Assembly (NCBI GenBank): GCA_019119415.1
Contig: DWXB01000010.1
Coordinates: 1 to 64,000, forward strand
Length of the DNA stretch: 64,000 nt
Source of the DNA: Candidatus Ligilactobacillus avistercoris
GTDB taxonomy: Bacteria; Bacillota; Bacilli; Lactobacillales; Lactobacillaceae
Direction: 5' to 3'
In this document: positions 1,309 to 35,609 of the stretch, piece after piece
How the letters are laid out: each line of letters opens with the position of its first letter
Position numbering within the stretch: position 1 is the stretch's first letter
Made by a program: the position numbers and the translations under genes
The notes under the pieces: model-generated
The model's input: only the letters and a program-made list of their open reading frames with translations
Told to the model about the DNA's origin: nothing
Database searches by the model: none

Positions 1309-2571
1309 TTAGGCGGCGTTTTTTGGTATCTTCGCATTCTCAAGTAACATAATACGGCGGATAAGCTGATCATAATTGCGGAAACCATAGGCCACCCGTT
1401 GGAGCTGTTTAATTTTCCGAATCGTGCCCTCCAAAGCACCATTTGAGTACGGCGAACATGCGCCATTAATGACATACTGGTAATTATGTTTTAGACTTCG
1501 TAAAACACCCTGCATTTGGGGGCCGACGTGGTGCGTTTGGTTTAAGCACGCCGCGAGGCGCTGGTGGTCACGCTGTCGTAAGGCATGGTTAATCTCCTGC
1601 ATAACATCGTATGTATTACTTAGCTGTTCATTAAGTTGAAGGCCATTATTAACGTGTTCTACGGGTGACATCCATTGTTGAAGATGGACATCATAGTAGT
1701 TGTGCGTACTTAATTGGTCGCTGGCAATCAAATACTGTTTCCAGCCAAACTTAAGGTATTTGTAGGCTCGCGAGTGAGGGTCAAACTCTTTGGTAATCTG
1801 GGCGCGTAGTTGATTAAAAGCCCGATTAACCATTTGGCAGAGGTGGAAACGATCCAGAACAATCATCGCATGTGGAAAAAGACGCTTAATAATCGTTTGA
1901 TAATGGTAGTTGAGGTCGAGCGTAATCGTTTGAACCTGAGCGCATTCAGCCGCTGAGAAGCCGTTAAAGTAATCCAAGAGTGACCGTTGGTCGCGTTGAC
2001 CCAGAATTTGATAAATCCGATGGGTATCATTGTCTAAACAAATAAAATGTAACTGGTGGCCAACGCCGCGAAACTCATCGAAGGCCAAGTTTACTGGTAA
2101 ACCGGCTCGTTTGACTTGCGGAAAGGCAGTGACAGTCGCCAATTCACGGGCTACTGTACTAGGAGAGACGCCCGTATCCGCCGCAATTTCCGTCATTGCC
2201 AATTGACGGGTTAGTTTAATCCGCACTTTTTGTTTAACGGCATTACTAATATGACAATGACGATCAACGAGCGGTGTAGTCGCCATCATCGTTGCGTGAC
2301 AATGTTGGCAACGTAAGCGTTCTTTACGTAAATCAAGATAAACTGGTCGCGAAGCGTCCACCGTCAGATATGGCATTGACACGTGAGCACTTCCGTTATG
2401 AACGAGCGTTGAAAAGCCACATGACGAACACCGTTTAGCTGTCGTTTTAAGGGTGCCATAATAGACTTTCACTCGCCGGCTACGTCGTAGTTCTGTTTTA
2501 TAACCAGTAAAAACAATATTATTGTCTTCAATATCGAGCGCAAAGTGGATATAATCGTTAATGGAGTTCAT
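1309..2571 (-). CDS. tnpA: ISL3-family transposase
   Basis: This 420-residue protein is the only gene of the surrounding insertion sequence and has full family length. The N-terminus carries a zinc-finger-like set of cysteines (CSSCG near residue 47, CQHCH near residue 88). A helix-turn-helix region follows (TEIAADTGVSPSTVARELA), then the DDE domain of ISL3 transposases (LAFDEFRGVG, TITLDLN, VLDRFHLCQ) and the C-terminal signature YSNGALEGTIRKIKQLQRVA. It should catalyse cut-and-paste or copy transposition of the element. No frameshift is visible, so it may be active. The start is the first methionine, 132 bases inside the right end. Confidence 0.93.
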   Translation of the reverse strand: MNSINDYIHFALDIEDNNIVFTGYKTELRRSRRVKVYYGTLKTTAKRCSSCGFSTLVHNGSAHVSMPYLTVDASRPVYLDLRKERLRCQHCHATMMATTPLVDRHCHISNAVKQKVRIKLTRQLAMTEIAADTGVSPSTVARELATVTAFPQVKRAGLPVNLAFDEFRGVGHQLHFICLDNDTHRIYQILGQRDQRSLLDYFNGFSAAECAQVQTITLDLNYHYQTIIKRLFPHAMIVLDRFHLCQMVNRAFNQLRAQITKEFDPHSRAYKYLKFGWKQYLIASDQLSTHNYYDVHLQQWMSPVEHVNNGLQLNEQLSNTYDVMQEINHALRQRDHQRLAACLNQTHHVGPQMQGVLRSLKHNYQYVINGACSPYSNGALEGTIRKIKQLQRVAYGFRNYDQLIRRIMLLENAKIPKNAA

Positions 2572-2610
2572 AGTATCAAGTCCTTTGTTTGGGTATTGGT
2601 GGATTTTGGG

Positions 2611-2702
2611 TACTATGGCTCTTTTTTATTGGTCATAGTACTCAAAAATCCTGTTGATATAGTTTAACATTTAACCATATCAACAGGATTTAGTGTAGAG
2701 CC
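2611..2702. repeat. Subterminal inverted repeats at the ISL3 right end
   Basis: AAATCCTGTTGATAT (2646-2660) is repeated in inverse as ATATCAACAGGATTT (2677-2691), giving a near-perfect hairpin next to the right terminal repeat. The same core, AAATCCTGTTGAT, is in the left terminal repeat. An extra GGCTCTTTT at 2617 lies inside a TACTATG/CATAGTA repeat. The block therefore looks like a second, nested element end. It may hold additional transposase binding sites or be a trapped miniature end-to-end fragment. Confidence 0.6.
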
Positions 2703-2724
2703 ATGATTGTGAGGCACTTTTTGT

Positions 2725-3258
2725 ATGGTTAAATATAATCCCGAATTAAAGGCGCAGATTGTTCATGAATATCTTTCAACTACGCAAAGTACCAATGATT
2801 TAAGTAAGAAATACCATATTGGGAAAAGTCAAATCGCTAGGTGGATTCATCGATATCGGTTGAATGGCCCTGATACCCTCAAACGGCGGCGGCATAAACG
2901 GAATTTTACTGCTGATTTCAAATTAAATGTGATAAACTACTACCAAACTCATGAGGATTCGACGACTGAAGTGGCGGCCCGCTTTGATATTTTGCCGTCA
3001 CAAGTTTCTGCCTGGCATTTAAGGTTTGAACGGGAAGGAATTACTGCCTTGAATCCTCAACCGAAAGGTAGGCCACCGAAAGTGAACCATTCTAAAAAAC
3101 AACGTCGTCAGCCGGCATATCAAAGTGAGCTTGACCGCTTAAAAGAAGAATTGGCTAAGAAAAATCAAGAACTCTATGAAACTAAGATGGAGCGCGACAT
3201 CTTAAAAAAATCGCTGACCCTGTTCGGACCCTCAAAGCCCGGAAGAAAACGCAAATAG
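2725..3258 (+). CDS. IS3-family transposase OrfA
   Basis: The protein has 177 residues, with two helix-turn-helix units (residues about 20-50, KKYHIGKSQIARWIHRY, and about 75-105, AARFDILPSQVSAWHLRF) and a C-terminal coiled coil (about 130-165) ending in the DILKKS segment. This is the usual OrfA layout of the IS150 group: end recognition and dimerisation. The last codons contain AAAAAAA at 3203-3209, the expected slippery site for a -1 shift into the overlapping OrfB. The ATG is 22 bases after the ISL3 boundary with only a weak ribosome site (GAGG). Confidence 0.9.
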   Translation: MVKYNPELKAQIVHEYLSTTQSTNDLSKKYHIGKSQIARWIHRYRLNGPDTLKRRRHKRNFTADFKLNVINYYQTHEDSTTEVAARFDILPSQVSAWHLRFEREGITALNPQPKGRPPKVNHSKKQRRQPAYQSELDRLKEELAKKNQELYETKMERDILKKSLTLFGPSKPGRKRK

Positions 3259-4154
3259 TGGATCAGATCAGGGACGACCAAACATCACTACCTAAGAAGC
3301 AACGCTATAAGATTGGCGATCTACTTAAGGTGATTATGTTGCCCAAGGCAACTTATCACGACGAGCGTAAACGGATTGCCAATCCGCATGATAAATACGT
3401 CAAAGCGAAGAAAATGATTCTTCAAATCGCACAACGGTTTCAGGTTCGGGGGCGTTGGACGGCGGGCTATCGCCGGATTCAAGCCGAATTAGATAAACAG
3501 GAATTACACTTGTCGGGCGATACGGTTCGTAAGCTAATGGGTGAATTGAACGTTCAAGTCAGTCTTTATAACCGCCACCGTAGCGGCAAATATTCGTCCT
3601 ATCATGGCACGGTAGGTAAGATCGCGGCTAATAAACTGAATCAGGAATTTAATGCGCACCAACCTTACCAGGTCATTCACACTGATGTTACGCAAGTCCG
3701 GCTGGCTAACCATCAATGGGCTTATATTTCAGTAATGATTGATGAAGCCAGCCAAGAGATTCTCGCCTTCCAGCTTAGTACTAGTCCAAATAAAGAACTA
3801 ATTATGCGCACCCTTGAAGAATTAACTGATAACCTACCTGATGGTGCCCAGCCAATCATTCATTCCGACCAAGGCTGGCATTATCAGTTGGCTTACTATA
3901 CCCAAAAACTCGCGGATTATCACTTTATTCAAAGTATGTCCCGCAAGGGAAACTGTTTAGATAACGCTCCGGTAGAAAGTTTCTTTCATTTGTTCAAAAC
4001 AGAATTACTGGCGGGCTTTCCACCATGTAAAGATATGACAGAACTACGGAAACTTTCTCAAAATTACGTTCAGTATTTTAATAATGTTAGAACGACTTTA
4101 AAAACAAACGGCATGACTCCGGTTGAATACCGAAATCACGCCTTAGTAGCTTGA
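3258..4154 (+). CDS. IS3-family transposase OrfB (DDE integrase core)
   Basis: OrfB lies in the -1 frame relative to OrfA. Its frame is open upstream to the A7 run at 3203-3209, so the true product is probably the OrfAB fusion made by programmed -1 frameshifting; the GTG at 3258 is a convenient label. An N-terminal HTH_21 segment (GRWTAGYRRIQAELDK) precedes the rve integrase domain with the catalytic triad in HTDVTQV, HSDQGWHYQ and NAPVESFF. It is full length at 298 residues with no internal stop. Its job is strand cleavage and joining of the element. Confidence 0.9.
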   Translation: MDQIRDDQTSLPKKQRYKIGDLLKVIMLPKATYHDERKRIANPHDKYVKAKKMILQIAQRFQVRGRWTAGYRRIQAELDKQELHLSGDTVRKLMGELNVQVSLYNRHRSGKYSSYHGTVGKIAANKLNQEFNAHQPYQVIHTDVTQVRLANHQWAYISVMIDEASQEILAFQLSTSPNKELIMRTLEELTDNLPDGAQPIIHSDQGWHYQLAYYTQKLADYHFIQSMSRKGNCLDNAPVESFFHLFKTELLAGFPPCKDMTELRKLSQNYVQYFNNVRTTLKTNGMTPVEYRNHALVA

Positions 4155-5480: not shown

Positions 5481-5508
5481 TTGCATTATAAAAAAAAGAT
5501 GTTAGAAT
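5481..5508 (+). promoter_or_regulatory. Promoter of the fluoride-riboswitch transcript
   Basis: TTGCAT (5481-5486) and TAGAAT (5503-5508) are separated by 16 bases. Initiation about 7 bases later would place the aptamer at the very 5' end of the RNA, as riboswitches require. Confidence 0.65.
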
Positions 5509-5516
5509 GAGGATGT

Positions 5517-5570
5517 ATCAAGGCAATGACGTTTGCCATAACCGCTTAATAAGCTGATAACGTCTATCAA
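5517..5570 (+). ncRNA. Fluoride riboswitch aptamer (crcB motif)
   Basis: The RNA folds as the crcB motif. GGCAA (5522-5526) pairs with TTGCC (5533-5537). The loop GACGT (5528-5532) forms the pseudoknot with ACGTC (5560-5564). The second stem is GCTT/AAGC (5544-5547 with 5551-5554). The conserved joining bases ATAACC and TGATAACGTCTATC match the Thermotoga petrophila aptamer in order and position. Fluoride binding in this class turns gene expression on. It sits directly before an expression platform and an enolase gene, a known target of crcB-motif RNAs because enolase is inhibited by fluoride. Confidence 0.93.
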
Positions 5571-5632
5571 CCTGAGGGGTTGGTGGACGGTTGTCTGGCA
5601 ACCTCCTCAGGATTTTCGGGGAGGTTTTTTTA
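5571..5632 (+). terminator. Fluoride riboswitch expression platform: terminator versus antiterminator
   Basis: The terminator stem is AACCTCC (5600-5606) with GGAGGTT (5620-5626), followed by a T run. A competing stem pairs CCTGAGGGGTTG (5571-5582) with CAACCTCCTCAGG (5599-5611), so only one can form. The 3' arm of the terminator is also the enolase ribosome site (GGGGAGG, 9 bases before the ATG). The OFF state would therefore both end transcription and hide the ribosome site on any read-through RNA. Confidence 0.88.
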
Positions 5633-5633
5633 A

Positions 5634-6920
5634 ATGGTTGCAAAAATCGAAGAAGTTAAGGCACGGGAAGTTTTTGATTCACGTGGGAATCCGACCGTTG
5701 AAGCTGATGTAATTTTAAGCGATGGAATAATGGGGCGGGCGGAAGTTCCTTCTGGTGCTTCTACCGGTGAAAAGGAAGCCATTGAGCTTCGTGACGGTGG
5801 TAGCCGGTTAATGGGTAAAGGAGTATTACAAGCTGTAAAAAATATCAATACGGAAATTAATACTGCTCTCCATGGGTTAAACCCATTAGCCCAAGCTCAT
5901 GTTGATCAAACGATGATTGCCCTTGATGGTACTTCGAATAAAGCGCGACTAGGAGCTAATGCAATTCTTGGTGTTTCCATGGCCGTTGCACGGGCGGCAG
6001 CGAACGAAACCAAACAACCGCTTTACCGCTATTTAGGTGGAACGGACTTGGAGTTACCCCAGACATTTCATAATGTCATCAATGGAGGAGAACACGCTGC
6101 TAATGATATTGACATGCAGGAATTTATGATTACGCCAGTTCAGCGGACAAGTTTTCGGGATGGGTTTGAAAAAATTGTAAATACGTATCATACCCTGAAG
6201 CAAATCCTTGAAGAACGAGGGTACTCAACTGGTCTTGGTGATGAAGGGGGCTTTGCGCCTAACCTGAAATCTTCCGAAGAAGCACTCCAGTTATTGCATG
6301 ATGCAATTAAAGTTGCCGGCTATGTTCCGGGAAAGGAAATTGCAGTAGCGTTTGATGCGGCAGCGTCTTATCTATATGATTCTCAAACGGGAAACTATCG
6401 GTTAGAAGGAAAAACGTACACACCGGATGAATTAGGTAAGTATTATGGCGCCCTACTTGATAAGTATCCAGAGATTATATCGATTGAAGATCCGTATGGT
6501 GAGGACGATTGGGAAAACTTTACGCGTTTTACTAAACAATACGGCCACCGCGTCCAATTAGTAGCCGATGATCCGGTGTGCACAAATCCTATTTTGGTGC
6601 GAAAAGCAATTAAAATGGGAATGGGGAATAGTATTTTAATTAAGTTGAATCAAATTGGAACAGTAACAGAGACGTTGGAAACAATTCGGCTTGCACGCAA
6701 AAATGGGTATACAACGATGATGTCACACCGGTCGGGGGAAACGGGCGATACCTTTATCGCTGACTTTACGGTTGCTACTAACGCTGCTGAATTAAAATCA
6801 GGCGCACCTGCCCGCTCCGAACGGGTTGAAAAGTACAACCAGTTACTCCGAATCGAAGAGGAGCTCGGTGAGGATGGAACGAGACTTGCGCATTATCCAA
6901 ACGATGTTGATAAGGATTAA
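5634..6920 (+). CDS. eno: Enolase (fluoride-responsive copy)
   Basis: Enolase (428 residues) converts 2-phosphoglycerate to phosphoenolpyruvate. All active-site residues can be found: the GASTG loop (41-45), His154 (GGEHA), Glu163, Glu204 (GDEGG), Asp241, Glu285 (IEDP), Asp312, Lys337, His365-Arg366-Ser367 and Lys388. Some motifs are unusual: VADDPVCTN replaces the common GDDLFVTN, and HAANDIDMQ replaces HADNNVDIQ. This copy is therefore probably a divergent second enolase rather than the housekeeping one, an inference that needs the rest of the genome. It follows a fluoride riboswitch and precedes the ATPase by 66 bases, as one stress unit. Substitution may lower fluoride sensitivity. Confidence 0.95.
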   Translation: MVAKIEEVKAREVFDSRGNPTVEADVILSDGIMGRAEVPSGASTGEKEAIELRDGGSRLMGKGVLQAVKNINTEINTALHGLNPLAQAHVDQTMIALDGTSNKARLGANAILGVSMAVARAAANETKQPLYRYLGGTDLELPQTFHNVINGGEHAANDIDMQEFMITPVQRTSFRDGFEKIVNTYHTLKQILEERGYSTGLGDEGGFAPNLKSSEEALQLLHDAIKVAGYVPGKEIAVAFDAAASYLYDSQTGNYRLEGKTYTPDELGKYYGALLDKYPEIISIEDPYGEDDWENFTRFTKQYGHRVQLVADDPVCTNPILVRKAIKMGMGNSILIKLNQIGTVTETLETIRLARKNGYTTMMSHRSGETGDTFIADFTVATNAAELKSGAPARSERVEKYNQLLRIEEELGEDGTRLAHYPNDVDKD

Positions 6921-6936
6921 GTTCATAATGAATTGG

Positions 6937-6986
6937 CCCTGATTAGGGGGCAATCTCCTGTCAGGGAACTGATGGGAGGTTTTTTT
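6937..6986 (+). terminator. Intergenic attenuator-like hairpin with the ATPase ribosome site in its stem
   Basis: CTCCTGTCAG (6955-6964), a GGAA loop and CTGATGGGAG (6969-6978) form a continuous 10-bp stem followed by G and seven T ending at the ATPase start codon. GGGAGG, the ATPase ribosome site, is its 3' arm. An upstream segment, CCCTGA (6938-6943), can pair with TCAGGG (6961-6966) and break the hairpin. No known aptamer fits in the 66 bases available. Confidence 0.75.
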
Positions 6987-9254
6987 ATGAATCAGGGGTT
7001 GTCTAGCAAAGTTGCAGCTCAAAGATTAGCTACGGACGGTCCGAACGAAGTAAAAATGAATAAAACTAATTTATGGACTTTGATTGGACGACGGTTATGG
7101 GAGCCCACTGCGTGGATAATTGAAGGTGCGTTGGTTATTGAATTAATCGCGGGAAACATGCTCCAAGCTGGTTTTATCGTTGCATTGTTATTTTTTGCGG
7201 CTATTAATGGCGCACTCCAAAATCAGCGGGCGGTTCGAGCGCTTGCTCCATTAACCAAACAGGTTGTTCCGGATGTTAGTGTTCTTCGCGATGGACAGTG
7301 GAAAATGATTCCAGCGCGCTTACTTGTTAGGGATGATGTGATTAATTTACGGAGCGGAAACTTGGTTCCGGCTGATGTTCAGATTATTGATGGAATGATT
7401 GCAACAAACGAGAGCCTTATTACCGGAGAGAGTGAGGCAATTCAACGGAGTGTTGGGATGACGTTGATGGCTGGTACTCAGGTTGAACGCGGGGTTGCAA
7501 CTGCTATTGTTCTTAGGACAGGGGCAGCAAGTCAGGTAGGGAAAATCACCCAGTTAGTGACTACCTCCCATGCACCCGGACGATTACAACATCTTCTTCA
7601 GCGAATTATTAATTTACTTGCAGCTGTTGATGCGGTTCTGGTGGTGGTTTTGGCTGGGGCAGCGTTGATGCGGCATGAACCACTGCTTAATTTGCTACCG
7701 TTAATTGGCGTCCTTTTTATTGCAACAATTCCAATCGCGATGCCTTCAAGTTTTAGTGTGGCTAATTCACTGGAAGCGCGAAAGTTGAGTGATGAACGTA
7801 TTATTGTTCGTGAGTTGAATGGAATTCAAACGGCGGCAACGGTTGATACGGTTCTCTTTGATAAAACGGGAACGCTAACTACAAATAAGCCAGTGATTGA
7901 CCAGATGGTTAATTTAAGTGATTATCCAGATAAAATTATTATTGCGTTTGCACAAGCGTTAACTGATTGGCGGCAACCCAGTCGTGTTGATCAAGCATTG
8001 CAGAATCTATCAAATCCAGTAAAGGATGAAGTTACGATAAAAGATTATCAGGAGTTTAGCACCCTTACAGGATATTCAGCGGCGACGATTATGTGGAACC
8101 ATCATCAATATAATGTCCAGTTAGGGGCACCACGGATAGTTCATAATGGATCGTATTTAGTAACGATGAAGTTTAAGCGGCCGGTGGTAGGACAGGTAAT
8201 TGTTCTTACGATTAATAACCGACCAGCAGCACTTTTTGCACTTGATGATCAACTGCGATCAGATGCCCAAGAAACTATTAATCGATTAATAGCCAATAAA
8301 ATTCATCCCGTAATGGTTACGGGCGATAGTATTCAAGCAGCGCGAATAGTTGCTAAAAAGCTCGGAATTCCCGGAAGGGTTATTACAGGAAACGAATTGG
8401 CAAGGATAAAATTATCTGACGTAGGTTGTGTTGCGGAGGTATTACCGGAAGGAAAACTGGCACTTGTTCAGCAGTTTCAAGCTGCTGGACACGTTGTTGC
8501 AATGACAGGAGATGGGGTGAACGATGCACCCGCATTGAAAAGAGCAGACGTAGGAATCGCGATGTATAATGCATCGGCGGTTGCTAAGAGAACGGCTAAA
8601 GTAACAATGCTTGATGCAGGACTCTTACCATTATTACGTTTGTTTGCGAGTGGTCATCGGGTCTATCAACGAATGATGACGTGGACGATTACTAAACTAG
8701 CACGCACCGCTGAATTAACTGTCATTTTAACATTAGGGTACGTAATAGCGGGAATCCTACCTGTTAGTTTAAATGCGATTATAATGTTAGCCATTTTAAA
8801 TGATGTAGTTACAATGGTTTTGGGGACCGATCGGGTTCAGGTAACATTTCAACCCGAAAAATGGAACTTTAAACGTCTAACATTAATTGCAGGGTTATTC
8901 ACCGTTTTTTGGACTGCCTTAGGATTAGGATTGTTTAGCTGGCTCTACTATGGCGTTTATGTACAACCAACGACGATTGAAACAGTTATGTACCTGTATT
9001 TAATGTTCACCGCAATGGATACGATTTGGATGACGCGGACAACGGGGTTATTTTGGAAAGAGATCCCTAGTGCAGCCGTTATATACACTACTTTAGGGAA
9101 TTGTTTATTATCGTTTGTTTTTGCGGTAGGAGGAGTTGTGTTAGCACCAGTTCCTTGGCAAGTGGGGGTAATTATTTTTGGAGGATGTCTTCTTTTAAGT
9201 TTTGTAGTTGATGGATTAAAGGTGATGTTTTATCGCCGTGAAATCAAAAATTAA
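6987..9254 (+). CDS. P-type cation ATPase, P3A (plasma-membrane H+-ATPase-like)
   Basis: The 755-residue pump has the P-type core: TGES actuator motif (146-149), phosphorylation site Asp292 in DKTGTLTTN, and the hinge MTGDGVNDAPA with Asp509. About ten membrane segments are arranged as in P3A proton ATPases. The likely role is ATP-driven proton (or other cation) export from the cytoplasm. The nucleotide-binding domain is divergent: the usual KGAP reads LGAP (near residue 384), and the canonical FDPxxKR segment is not recognisable. The ATG at 6987 has GGGAGG upstream; an upstream TTG in frame lies before the hairpin and is rejected. The gene is co-transcribed with enolase under fluoride control, which suggests a role against HF-driven acidification. 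Confidence 0.88.
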   Translation: MNQGLSSKVAAQRLATDGPNEVKMNKTNLWTLIGRRLWEPTAWIIEGALVIELIAGNMLQAGFIVALLFFAAINGALQNQRAVRALAPLTKQVVPDVSVLRDGQWKMIPARLLVRDDVINLRSGNLVPADVQIIDGMIATNESLITGESEAIQRSVGMTLMAGTQVERGVATAIVLRTGAASQVGKITQLVTTSHAPGRLQHLLQRIINLLAAVDAVLVVVLAGAALMRHEPLLNLLPLIGVLFIATIPIAMPSSFSVANSLEARKLSDERIIVRELNGIQTAATVDTVLFDKTGTLTTNKPVIDQMVNLSDYPDKIIIAFAQALTDWRQPSRVDQALQNLSNPVKDEVTIKDYQEFSTLTGYSAATIMWNHHQYNVQLGAPRIVHNGSYLVTMKFKRPVVGQVIVLTINNRPAALFALDDQLRSDAQETINRLIANKIHPVMVTGDSIQAARIVAKKLGIPGRVITGNELARIKLSDVGCVAEVLPEGKLALVQQFQAAGHVVAMTGDGVNDAPALKRADVGIAMYNASAVAKRTAKVTMLDAGLLPLLRLFASGHRVYQRMMTWTITKLARTAELTVILTLGYVIAGILPVSLNAIIMLAILNDVVTMVLGTDRVQVTFQPEKWNFKRLTLIAGLFTVFWTALGLGLFSWLYYGVYVQPTTIETVMYLYLMFTAMDTIWMTRTTGLFWKEIPSAAVIYTTLGNCLLSFVFAVGGVVLAPVPWQVGVIIFGGCLLLSFVVDGLKVMFYRREIKN

Positions 9255-33623: not shown

Positions 33624-33647
33624 AAAAACGATGAATGATTTGTTCTT

Positions 33648-33729
33648 CATCGTCCTGGTGGTATATGACTATGGATAAGGCTGGTCGTTTCTACCTGAAG
33701 CCGTAAACTTCAGACTACCTCGGGTGATG
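33648..33729 (+). ncRNA. Purine riboswitch aptamer, guanine type, with no gene downstream
   Basis: P1 is CATCGTCC (33648-33655) with GGGTGATG (33722-33729). P2 is GACTA/TGGTC with loop GATAAGG. GTTTCTACC follows, then the perfect P3 CTGAAG/CTTCAG around loop CCGTAAA, and GACTAC. GATAAGG with CCGTAAA is the loop-loop pair of the class. The C in GACTAC is the base that selects guanine over adenine. An upstream CGATGAA (33629-33635) can pair with TTCATCG (33646-33652) and compete with P1. The next forward gene is over 1 kb away past two convergent genes. Confidence 0.9.
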
Positions 33730-33748
33730 GTGAAGTTCGTGATTGCAT

Positions 33749-34265: not shown

Positions 34266-34796
34266 TTAATGATTATCAGTTGGGGTGAGGAGTTGCTCGT
34301 ACGCAATGCGGTTGGGGTCAGTGGGTTCGTCAATGATTTTGATAAATCCACACTGGATAAACCCCGCGTTTACCGCTGTTTTTTGCATTGGGAGGTTAAG
34401 CCGGTGCGTGTCAATTCGCACGCTGTGGTAGCCATTTTGCTGGGCGCGGTCAACCAGTAACTTTAAAAACGGGGTGGCCATTCCCTGGCCGCGAACGCTG
34501 GGTGCGAGGGCAACCCGGTGAATGGTGCAGTAGTCAGCACCTGAGGTGAACCACTGGCCGTCAATGTGCTGGTAATTTGGGTCGGCCCCACCAACCATGG
34601 CGGCATAACCAATTACCGTTTGCTCCTTCTCAAGGACGTACGCAACGTGGTGTTTAATATCAGCGGTAATGGTCGTACTATTCGGGTAACCGTTTTGCCA
34701 TTGGGGATTGCCAGCCTGCTTTAGGGCAGCGATGGCCCCGTTGATAATTTCCATTATTGCTGATTGATCATTAGGCGTTGCTAATCGAAGTTGCAA
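34266..34796 (-). CDS. GNAT-family N-acetyltransferase
   Basis: In this 176-residue enzyme the N-terminal LRLATPNDQSAIMEIINGAI is a typical GNAT start, and VALAPSVRGQGMATPFLKLLVDRA is the acetyl-CoA-binding motif A (R/Q-x-x-G-x-G/A). The TTG start at 34796 has GAGGAGG seven bases upstream; earlier ATG codons (34826, 34844) lie in the promoter, where TACAAT forms the likely -10. Acceptor substrate unknown. It heads a two-gene unit with the VOC protein. Confidence 0.85.
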   Translation of the reverse strand: MQLRLATPNDQSAIMEIINGAIAALKQAGNPQWQNGYPNSTTITADIKHHVAYVLEKEQTVIGYAAMVGGADPNYQHIDGQWFTSGADYCTIHRVALAPSVRGQGMATPFLKLLVDRAQQNGYHSVRIDTHRLNLPMQKTAVNAGFIQCGFIKIIDEPTDPNRIAYEQLLTPTDNH

Positions 34797-34863
34797 TCCA
34801 ATTCCTCCTCGGTTGTAAACTGTCATCATTGTACACAGGCCCACGTTATTACTGCAAGCGCCG

Positions 34864-34892
34864 TTGCCGTTCTGCCTAAGAATTCGTATAAT
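34864..34892 (+). promoter_or_regulatory. Promoter of the DUF554 gene
   Basis: TTGCCG (34864-34869), a 17-base spacer and TATAAT (34887-34892) form a near-consensus promoter. Confidence 0.75.
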
Positions 34893-34925
34893 TTAGGGGA
34901 GATTAAACGAACGGAGTTAAGAATT

Positions 34926-35609
34926 GTGCTGTACGTTATTTTGGATTTAGTGGGAATTGTGATTGCCAGCTTACTGAGTCAGCCGTTGAAACACGTGTTA
35001 ACGACCACCCAAACAAGTGCGATGCTGGACGCGGCAACGCTGTGCGTGGGCATTATCGGAATTCAGGGAGCCATTACCACTAAGCAGCCGCTCCTCATGT
35101 TGGTTAGTCTTGTTTTAGGAACACTGGTCGGCTATTGGTTGGATATTGACGGCCGATTTACGGGAGTCGGTCACGTACTGGAACGCCGGCTTCACGCGGC
35201 AAACGAAGATTTTGTGACCGGGTTTGTCGCTGCGCTGATGATTGAGTGCATTGGTTCAATGGCGATTATCGGCCCGCTTAACGAAGCGTTAAGCCATAAC
35301 CCGAATATCATGTTGATGAAAATCGTCCTGGACGTGCTGGCGTCGTTAATTTACGGGGCGGCATTTGGCCCGGGCGTGTTGTTTGCAGGACCATTTGTTT
35401 TTGCTTACGAGGCGGTCATTTATTGCGCGGCTGCGGCGTTCCACCCGTTCCTAACGACAGCGGTTATTACGGAAATCGGGGCGGTCGGTTCGGCCCTCCT
35501 TGTTGCGTTAGCCATCGATGTATTAAAAATTCGCAAACTGAAGGTGGCAAACATGTTGCCCGCCCTGTTGGGCCCGCTTCTTTATGGGTTATTGCTTGGG
35601 TTAAGGTAG
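34926..35609 (+). CDS. DUF554 (YqgA-like) membrane protein
   Basis: The protein has 227 residues, six to seven hydrophobic segments and the DUF554 pattern (GIQGAITTKQPLLMLVSLVLGTLVG, FVTGFVAALMIECIGSMAIIGPLNEAL). A GTG start at 34926 has GGAG nine bases upstream; the frame extends further 5' but across the promoter. The role of the family is unknown; transport has been suggested from fold alone. It is a single gene. Confidence 0.85.
   Translation: MLYVILDLVGIVIASLLSQPLKHVLTTTQTSAMLDAATLCVGIIGIQGAITTKQPLLMLVSLVLGTLVGYWLDIDGRFTGVGHVLERRLHAANEDFVTGFVAALMIECIGSMAIIGPLNEALSHNPNIMLMKIVLDVLASLIYGAAFGPGVLFAGPFVFAYEAVIYCAAAAFHPFLTTAVITEIGAVGSALLVALAIDVLKIRKLKVANMLPALLGPLLYGLLLGLR

Follow-up and report, generated by a model that had tools for sequence, protein, structure and literature searches.

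A fluoride riboswitch unit of a second enolase and a P3A-like ATPase recurs in Lactobacillaceae

Introduction

Why should a fluoride riboswitch stand ahead of genes for an enolase and an ion-pumping ATPase, with no exporter gene beside them? The question is raised by a locus in the first 64,000 nucleotides (nts) of contig DWXB01000010.1 of Candidatus Ligilactobacillus avistercoris (assembly GCA_019119415.1, forward strand), and this whole stretch is called the window here. The bacterial fluoride exporters known are the passive channel Fluc and the proton antiporter CLC-F. Both rely on the proton motive force, which hydrogen fluoride (HF) and a fluoride-inhibited F-ATPase undermine. In the window the riboswitch is followed on the same strand by a second enolase gene and by the gene of a P-type ATPase that resembles the P3A proton pumps. 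The pairing of the two genes is supported as a recurrent fluoride unit; the finding is real, and wider than an earlier inspection of the sequence (the original prediction) had seen. The reading favored here, with rather more than even confidence, is that the operon is fluoride-inducible and provides a backup enolase together with an electrogenic proton pump, which would clear the protons that enter with HF and help to drive F− through Fluc.

The riboswitch and its leader

The fluoride riboswitch aptamer (crcB motif, RF01734) occupies 5513–5573 (+), and with the covariance model it scores 50.4 bits where the gathering score is 34 (E 5.2e-11). A complete aptamer with its pseudoknot had been read there before, in a narrower interval, 5517–5570, which falls within the match. 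The pseudoknot, spanning 5528–5564 (+), joins GACGU at 5528–5532 to ACGUC at 5560–5564. It is conserved by compensatory change: in an alignment of 25 sequences it is paired in 125 of 125 cells, and three of its five pairs have changes on both sides. No other fluoride riboswitch was found in the whole assembly (1.31 Mb, 98.7% complete). Transcription likely starts from a sigma-70 promoter at 5481–5508 (+), read by eye as TTGCAT and a TG-extended TAGAAT separated by 16 nts, and absent from the output of a strict consensus scan.

An expression platform, as the original prediction had it, is present behind the aptamer. Its structures are energy folds, not probing data. In minimum free energy folds of growing transcripts, 5556–5573 pairs with 5577–5595 (+) in a hairpin that absorbs the aptamer's 3′ part and has no U-run behind it. 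It is followed by an intrinsic terminator at 5600–5631 (+), with its stem at 5600–5608/5618–5626 and seven U at 5625–5631; this is supported by the fold of the whole leader, 5513–5640 (z −5.4), and was missed by a terminator scan whose loop limit was 8. The ribosome site, GGGGAGG at 5618–5624, sits in the 3′ arm of the terminator. Left free, the whole leader folds with 5556–5573 paired to 5577–5595 and with 5600–5626 as the terminator ahead of the seven U. With the aptamer strand withheld, an antiterminator forms at 5571–5611 (+; −28.1 kcal/mol, z −3.8 versus shuffles), which takes the 5′ arm of the terminator and exposes GGGGAGG. The same structure was again obtained when the aptamer bases were forced to be unpaired.

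From these folds we infer the directions of the switch. In the absence of fluoride, the aptamer's 3′ strand would be drawn into the 5556–5595 hairpin, and 5600–5626 would terminate transcription and hide the ribosome site. With fluoride the aptamer would keep its 3′ strand, and the bases so freed would form the antiterminator, blocking the terminator and leaving the ribosome site open. The window leader would then act by relay, from an aptamer hairpin to a separate antiterminator and terminator. Most of the other leaders folded differ: in 22 of 32, a hairpin that starts inside the aptamer precedes a U-run and is itself the terminator. In the remaining 10 no such terminator was seen, the analysis ending at an early U-run, giving a hairpin without overlap (L116, L118) or finding none (L244). 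The B. cereus fluoride switch also differs, since by its description (PMC11077080) the pseudoknot strand belongs to the terminator itself; in the window it would belong to a separate hairpin with no U-run. With the RF01734 class as a whole the window shares the aptamer, the pseudoknot and a terminator-type platform before stress genes.

Recurrence of the two-gene unit

Is the arrangement peculiar to this genome? Eighty Lactobacillaceae ATPase loci were compared, namely the better ATPase matches, one plasmid and the window, in all of which the ATPase match begins near the N terminus; the set includes near-copies. Riboswitches were counted with an aptamer model, R1, which was built on 25 aptamers, has five base pairs and lacks a pseudoknot. 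The order riboswitch–enolase–ATPase is present in 30 of the 80 loci, a riboswitch immediately before the ATPase gene in 15, and one or the other in 43. Ten of the 15 direct riboswitches are above the Rfam cut-off, two (L113, L126) are below it and three (L073, L079, L110) are unlisted. In some loci each gene has a riboswitch of its own, the genes being divergent in L064 and in tandem in L112 and L114. There is a crcB gene near the unit in 16 loci, and 22 have neither riboswitch–enolase–ATPase, nor a direct riboswitch, nor crcB.

Other P-type ATPases of the family gave no fluoride riboswitch in 20 control loci of 8–10 kb at E up to 1, and none in the 14 of these rescanned with Rfam. A fluoride riboswitch match is present in 89 of 397 Lactobacillaceae genomes, above the cut-off in 79, and in 39 of the 89 the P3A-like ATPase is linked to it. 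Linked genomes number 42 in all, two with fragmentary ATPases and three seen by R1 only. The predicted joining of an enolase and a P3A ATPase is upheld by these counts as a two-gene fluoride unit that recurs, with an ATPase that is P3A-like. Upstream of the unit in the window are transposase-like genes (1309–4154; by eye, one − and two +), and IS3 genes are near the plasmid copies L016 and L020, hinting that the unit is mobile.

Riboswitch and ATPase are linked in other groups as well. Species genomes yielded 105 ATPase loci, and the best 80 of these, many overlapping the Lactobacillaceae set, were compared. The riboswitch is immediately ahead of the ATPase gene in 13 of them, 24 have the order riboswitch–enolase–ATPase, and 49 have a riboswitch somewhere in the locus. 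In 12 of 39 ATPase loci from outside Lactobacillaceae there is a fluoride riboswitch above the Rfam cut-off; Rfam was applied to 37 of the 39 and R1 alone to the other two. The ATPase gene is directly preceded by it in Anaerolinea, in another Chloroflexi bacterium and in a Bathyarchaeota metagenome-assembled genome (MAG), whereas Desulfosporosinus, a Clostridium MAG, Ornatilinea, Sphingobium, Pandoraea, Variovorax and others have it at another place in the locus. The neighbors in such islands include MutS_V, Na_H_Exchanger, Voltage_CLC, MFS, histidine phosphatase and enolase proteins. Thermoplasmata ATPases have no fluoride riboswitch in any of 16 loci with R1 or in the 14 scanned with Rfam. 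A broader proposal is that the P3A-like clade, with members in Lactobacillaceae, Clostridia, Chloroflexi, Proteobacteria and an archaeal MAG, is dedicated to fluoride resistance as a riboswitch-controlled pump, the ATP engine of HF removal, either via Fluc or by moving HF itself. We hold this tentatively, at slightly less than even weight.

The P3A-like ATPase

The ATPase (755 amino acids, 6987–9254, +) probably starts at ATG 6987, behind GGGAGG-U7; the first-start rule for open reading frames gives TTG 6933. Its best NCBIfam model is P3A TIGR01647, with 408.7 bits, which is below the equivalog cut-off of 615.5, and the family does not fix the cargo. At the position of what we take to be the P3A motif KGAP, most relatives read LGA or LGS. 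Because of the score and this motif it is named P3A-like rather than a P3A member. The plant and fungal proton pumps AHA2 and Pma1 are the top matches in a sequence search of the PDB, and when its AlphaFold2 model (mean predicted local distance difference test score 81.7) was compared with Foldseek, Pma1, AHA2, Pma1 and Pma1 took ranks 1–4 by E-value. With these P3A H+-ATPases it shares the overall fold, common by TM-score to Ca and Na,K pumps as well, and the sequences DKTGT, TGE, TIPIAMP in helix 4 without a carboxylate, and ILND in helix 6. It differs from them in having LGA/LGS for the presumed KGAP and in length, the solved AHA2 chain having 833 amino acids.

The helix-6 aspartate is of particular concern here. 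D606 aligns with the aspartate of ILND in AHA2, which we take to be D684, the proton-site residue. Aspartate occupies this position in 63 of 63 ATPases that are riboswitch-linked or have an in-locus riboswitch, versus 36 of 64 others, an association uncorrected for kinship. The 28 that lack it have N (27) or S (1), fall in two clades (L060, L068, L069, L072 and L083 are examples) and have no riboswitch link in any case; their cargo may therefore have changed. Two AHA2 residues, N106 and R655, are presumably polar partners in helices 2 and 5. N74 is present in the window ATPase and variable among its kin, and K570 and R573 are kept in the riboswitch-linked ATPases, with no one-to-one alignment to R655. 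In a FastTree phylogeny of 127 ATPases every riboswitch-linked row is within one clade of 110 rows, 47 of which are unlinked. The Thermoplasmata ATPases, also unlinked, are outside it.

Might the ATPase move some other cation (e.g. Mg2+, K+ or Na+), and so repair an ion imbalance caused by fluoride? Its score below the equivalog cut-off and the variability of position 74 would suit such a role, as would the TM-scores, by which AHA2 is no closer to the model than Ca and Na,K pumps are (0.84–0.85). However, it is proton pumps that lead both the sequence matches and the Foldseek E-values, helix 4 has no carboxylate and the helix-6 aspartate is invariant in the linked copies. Transport of another cation is considered unlikely, and from the features shared with AHA2 and Pma1 we infer that protons are the cargo.

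The F-type enolase

The window enolase, here called F-type, has 428 amino acids (5634–6920, +) and scores 578.7 bits with TIGR01060, for which the cut-off is 300. It is not the only enolase of the genome: an ordinary copy, 53% identical to it, is on contig C16 downstream of genes that by eye resemble gap, pgk and tpi. A tree of 90 enolases separates 69 of the window type from 21 ordinary ones at 100% SH-aLRT (Shimodaira–Hasegawa-like approximate likelihood ratio test), and a riboswitch is upstream of 40 of the 69 versus 0 of the 21. The window copy carries GASTG, QEF, GDEGG, IED, DD, IKLNQ, SHRSGE and the K of LKSG, which we take to be the catalytic and metal-binding motifs of enolase. Unusual neighbors of the active site had been noticed in the original prediction, and some of them proved to be clade-wide. 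P319 is present in 69 of 69 F-type enolases (T in 21 of 21 ordinary ones) and F374 in 67 of 69 (T in 20 of 21), both near the metal site. ADDPVCTN, where ordinary enolases have GDDLFVTN, and GETGD, where they have GETED, are frequent among F-type enolases and not universal.

In 16 of 78 genomes searched, two of them of the same genus (G001, G023), the F-type is the sole enolase, and must therefore be a working glycolytic enzyme. At the F-type copies fetched from sole-enolase genomes (e.g. L164, L165) there was no riboswitch match. In these lineages, of which there is more than one, the F-type appears to have replaced the ordinary enolase as housekeeping enzyme. The riboswitch-linked enolase of a Chloroflexi locus (L240) is 57% identical to the ordinary and 53% to the F-type enzyme and, being nearer to the former, looks like a separate recruitment.

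Is the spare enolase a form that would work better in fluoride, or just an extra dose of a fluoride-sensitive enzyme? The Lactobacillaceae fluoride-linked enolases form a clade of their own, in which changes close to the metal site are shared, and they are not copies of the ordinary enolase, which argues against mere dosage. On the side of dosage, the presumed catalytic residues are unchanged in the window enolase, some riboswitch-linked enolases retain the ordinary GDDIFVTN or GETED, and the extra enolase of Enterobacter cloacae FRM, induced 176-fold by fluoride, is read as added copies of an inhibited enzyme in PMC5533749. Dosage is a serious contender, to which we give somewhat less than an even chance.

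The ordinary enolase has a neighbor of its own. In L022 a chloride-type CLC gene (6632–8254) is immediately behind it, and in about a dozen of 21 genomes a CLC gene is within 3 kb of it.

Between the two genes

Between the enolase and ATPase genes, at 6952–6986 (+), is a hairpin of 13 pairs with a U-run (terminator scan; fold z −3.9), and the ribosome site GGGAGG at 6974–6979 is within this element. The scan gave five such sites in 4 kb where 3.5 are expected. The element resembles the terminator of the leader (local alignment of 5595–5640 with 6940–6990). The likeness is weak evidence, its score being reached by 0 of 2000 shuffles and by 2 of 2000 random stretches of the window, draws which may overlap the terminator element itself.

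If this hairpin ended most transcripts, fluoride would control the enolase only and the ATPase would be a passenger. L. aviarius, which carries the unit too, has a hairpin with a U-run at the equivalent place, and two of five intergenic stretches folded from other genera (L062, L082) have strong ones. The other three (L066, L075, L116) have no hairpin with a U-run, and the ATPase has its own fluoride riboswitch in 15 of the 80 loci. A passenger ATPase is improbable.

Exporters elsewhere in the genome

The original prediction had noted the lack of a fluoride exporter. This stands for the window (contig C8), which has no crcB or CLC gene, so that neither crcB nor CLC-F is within the riboswitch operon; it does not stand for the genome, where matches are on contigs C18, C16 and C11. 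A tandem crcB pair is present on C18, with no riboswitch match in its 8 kb locus. The two CLC proteins of the genome carry GSGIP or GSGVP and GREGP, which we take to be chloride-type motifs, and they were not counted as a hidden CLC-F exporter. Tolerance in place of export, with the unit standing in for an exporter, is ruled out by the crcB pair, and it sits no better with the crcB genes found near the unit in other loci. Since an exporter is present in the genome, the pump is best read as an energy or pH partner of export and not as a substitute.

Where the ATPase is fluoride-linked, 40 of 40 genomes have a crcB gene, versus 24 of 34 where it is unlinked (Fisher p 1.8e-4, kinship uncorrected). 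This co-occurrence and the helix-6 aspartate are compatible with a proton pump working with Fluc and are no proof of it. The 40 genomes also bear on whether the ATPase could itself be the primary exporter of fluoride or HF, for in them the known exporter has not been replaced. To our knowledge, no P-type ATPase moves a halide. What speaks for direct export is the riboswitch right before the ATPase gene, with no nearby enolase match in 12 of the 80 Lactobacillaceae loci, and the same direct position in the two Chloroflexi and the Bathyarchaeota MAG. Even so, direct export is very unlikely.

Relation to known systems

That enolase can be under fluoride riboswitch control is known from PMC11139923, and in E. 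cloacae an operon for fluoride that includes enolase and crcB was put to the test (PMC5533749). The latter, ppaC-uspA-eno-gpmA-crcB-orf5249 in strain FRM, is like the window in being riboswitch-led with an extra enolase. As described there, it has its exporter inside the operon, whereas in the window genome crcB is at another locus with no riboswitch match, and the enolase gene is followed by that of a full-length P3A-like ATPase. A Listeria plasmid operon, DUF190-crcB-crcB-eno-cation:proton antiporter, resembles the window in its riboswitch, its F-type-related enolase and its proton-handling transporter; by its sequence this transporter would be a Na+/H+ exchanger, where the window would have an ATP-driven pump. 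At the start of the exchanger gene, which ends the operon, the Listeria plasmid has a Na+ riboswitch match (RF03071; L019, 5264–5307; 40.9 bits, cut-off 40.5), and there are thus two ion riboswitches in one operon.

The pairing of a fluoride-riboswitch enolase with a P3A-like ATPase was not found in print, and no link of a P3A-type ATPase to a fluoride riboswitch was found in the literature searched, which excluded the gene lists of the 2012 founding paper. The word ATPase is absent from the main text of the fluoride review (PMC11139923), and in PMC11477304 the P-type ATPase is under a manganese riboswitch.

Other features of the window

A purine riboswitch (RF00167, 53.6 bits) is at 33639–33737 (+), and no purine gene is evident on the same strand for about 1 kb. 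Of the long + open reading frames not overlapped by another, the next, 34791–35609, resembles a membrane protein, and the riboswitch is possibly an orphan.

A model for fluoride defense

How could the two proteins act together? While the ordinary enolase is blocked, the clade-specific spare would sustain glycolysis. HF carries one proton in with each fluoride, and the P3A-like ATPase would export protons. In removing the proton, the pump would make the inside more negative, and the voltage would push F− out via the CrcB (Fluc) pair. Pump and channel together would then amount to ATP-driven removal of HF. In Streptococcus mutans raised F0F1-ATPase leads to higher fluoride tolerance, according to PMC8841791. 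Na+/H+ antiporters, the commonest riboswitch-linked class after exporters, are explained by pH homeostasis in PMC11139923.

Several points weigh against a proton pump coupled to Fluc. P-type ATPases are usually inhibited by metal-fluoride complexes, and one would be an odd tool in fluoride unless unusually tolerant. The ATPase misses the P3A cut-off, and in TM-score AHA2 has no lead over Ca and Na,K pumps. Neither the D606 nor the crcB association is corrected for kinship; the aspartate was lost in two clades, and 24 of 26 genomes of the genus have crcB, ATPase or not. R1 was built partly from loci then counted with it. The intergenic hairpin, being terminator-like, could reduce ATPase expression. 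In L016, which is on a plasmid, and in L131, L132 and L133, which are on short contigs, the ATPase lacks its middle part and the enolase, riboswitch and crcB matches are kept, so that the pump is dispensable there. Moreover, tolerant S. mutans strains held more intracellular fluoride, not less (PMC8841791), which favors pH repair over voltage-driven removal of fluoride.

If the proposal of a proton pump helping Fluc is true, a pump switched by fluoride and driven by ATP would provide the energy step that fluoride export lacks, and it would be most needed by fermenters without respiration. The clade would be a testable one for how a P-type ATPase and an enolase operate in fluoride, with relevance to organofluorine biotechnology and to bacteria of the mouth and of food. 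The riboswitch-linked pumps in other microbes point to an overlooked, ATP-driven part of fluoride defense.

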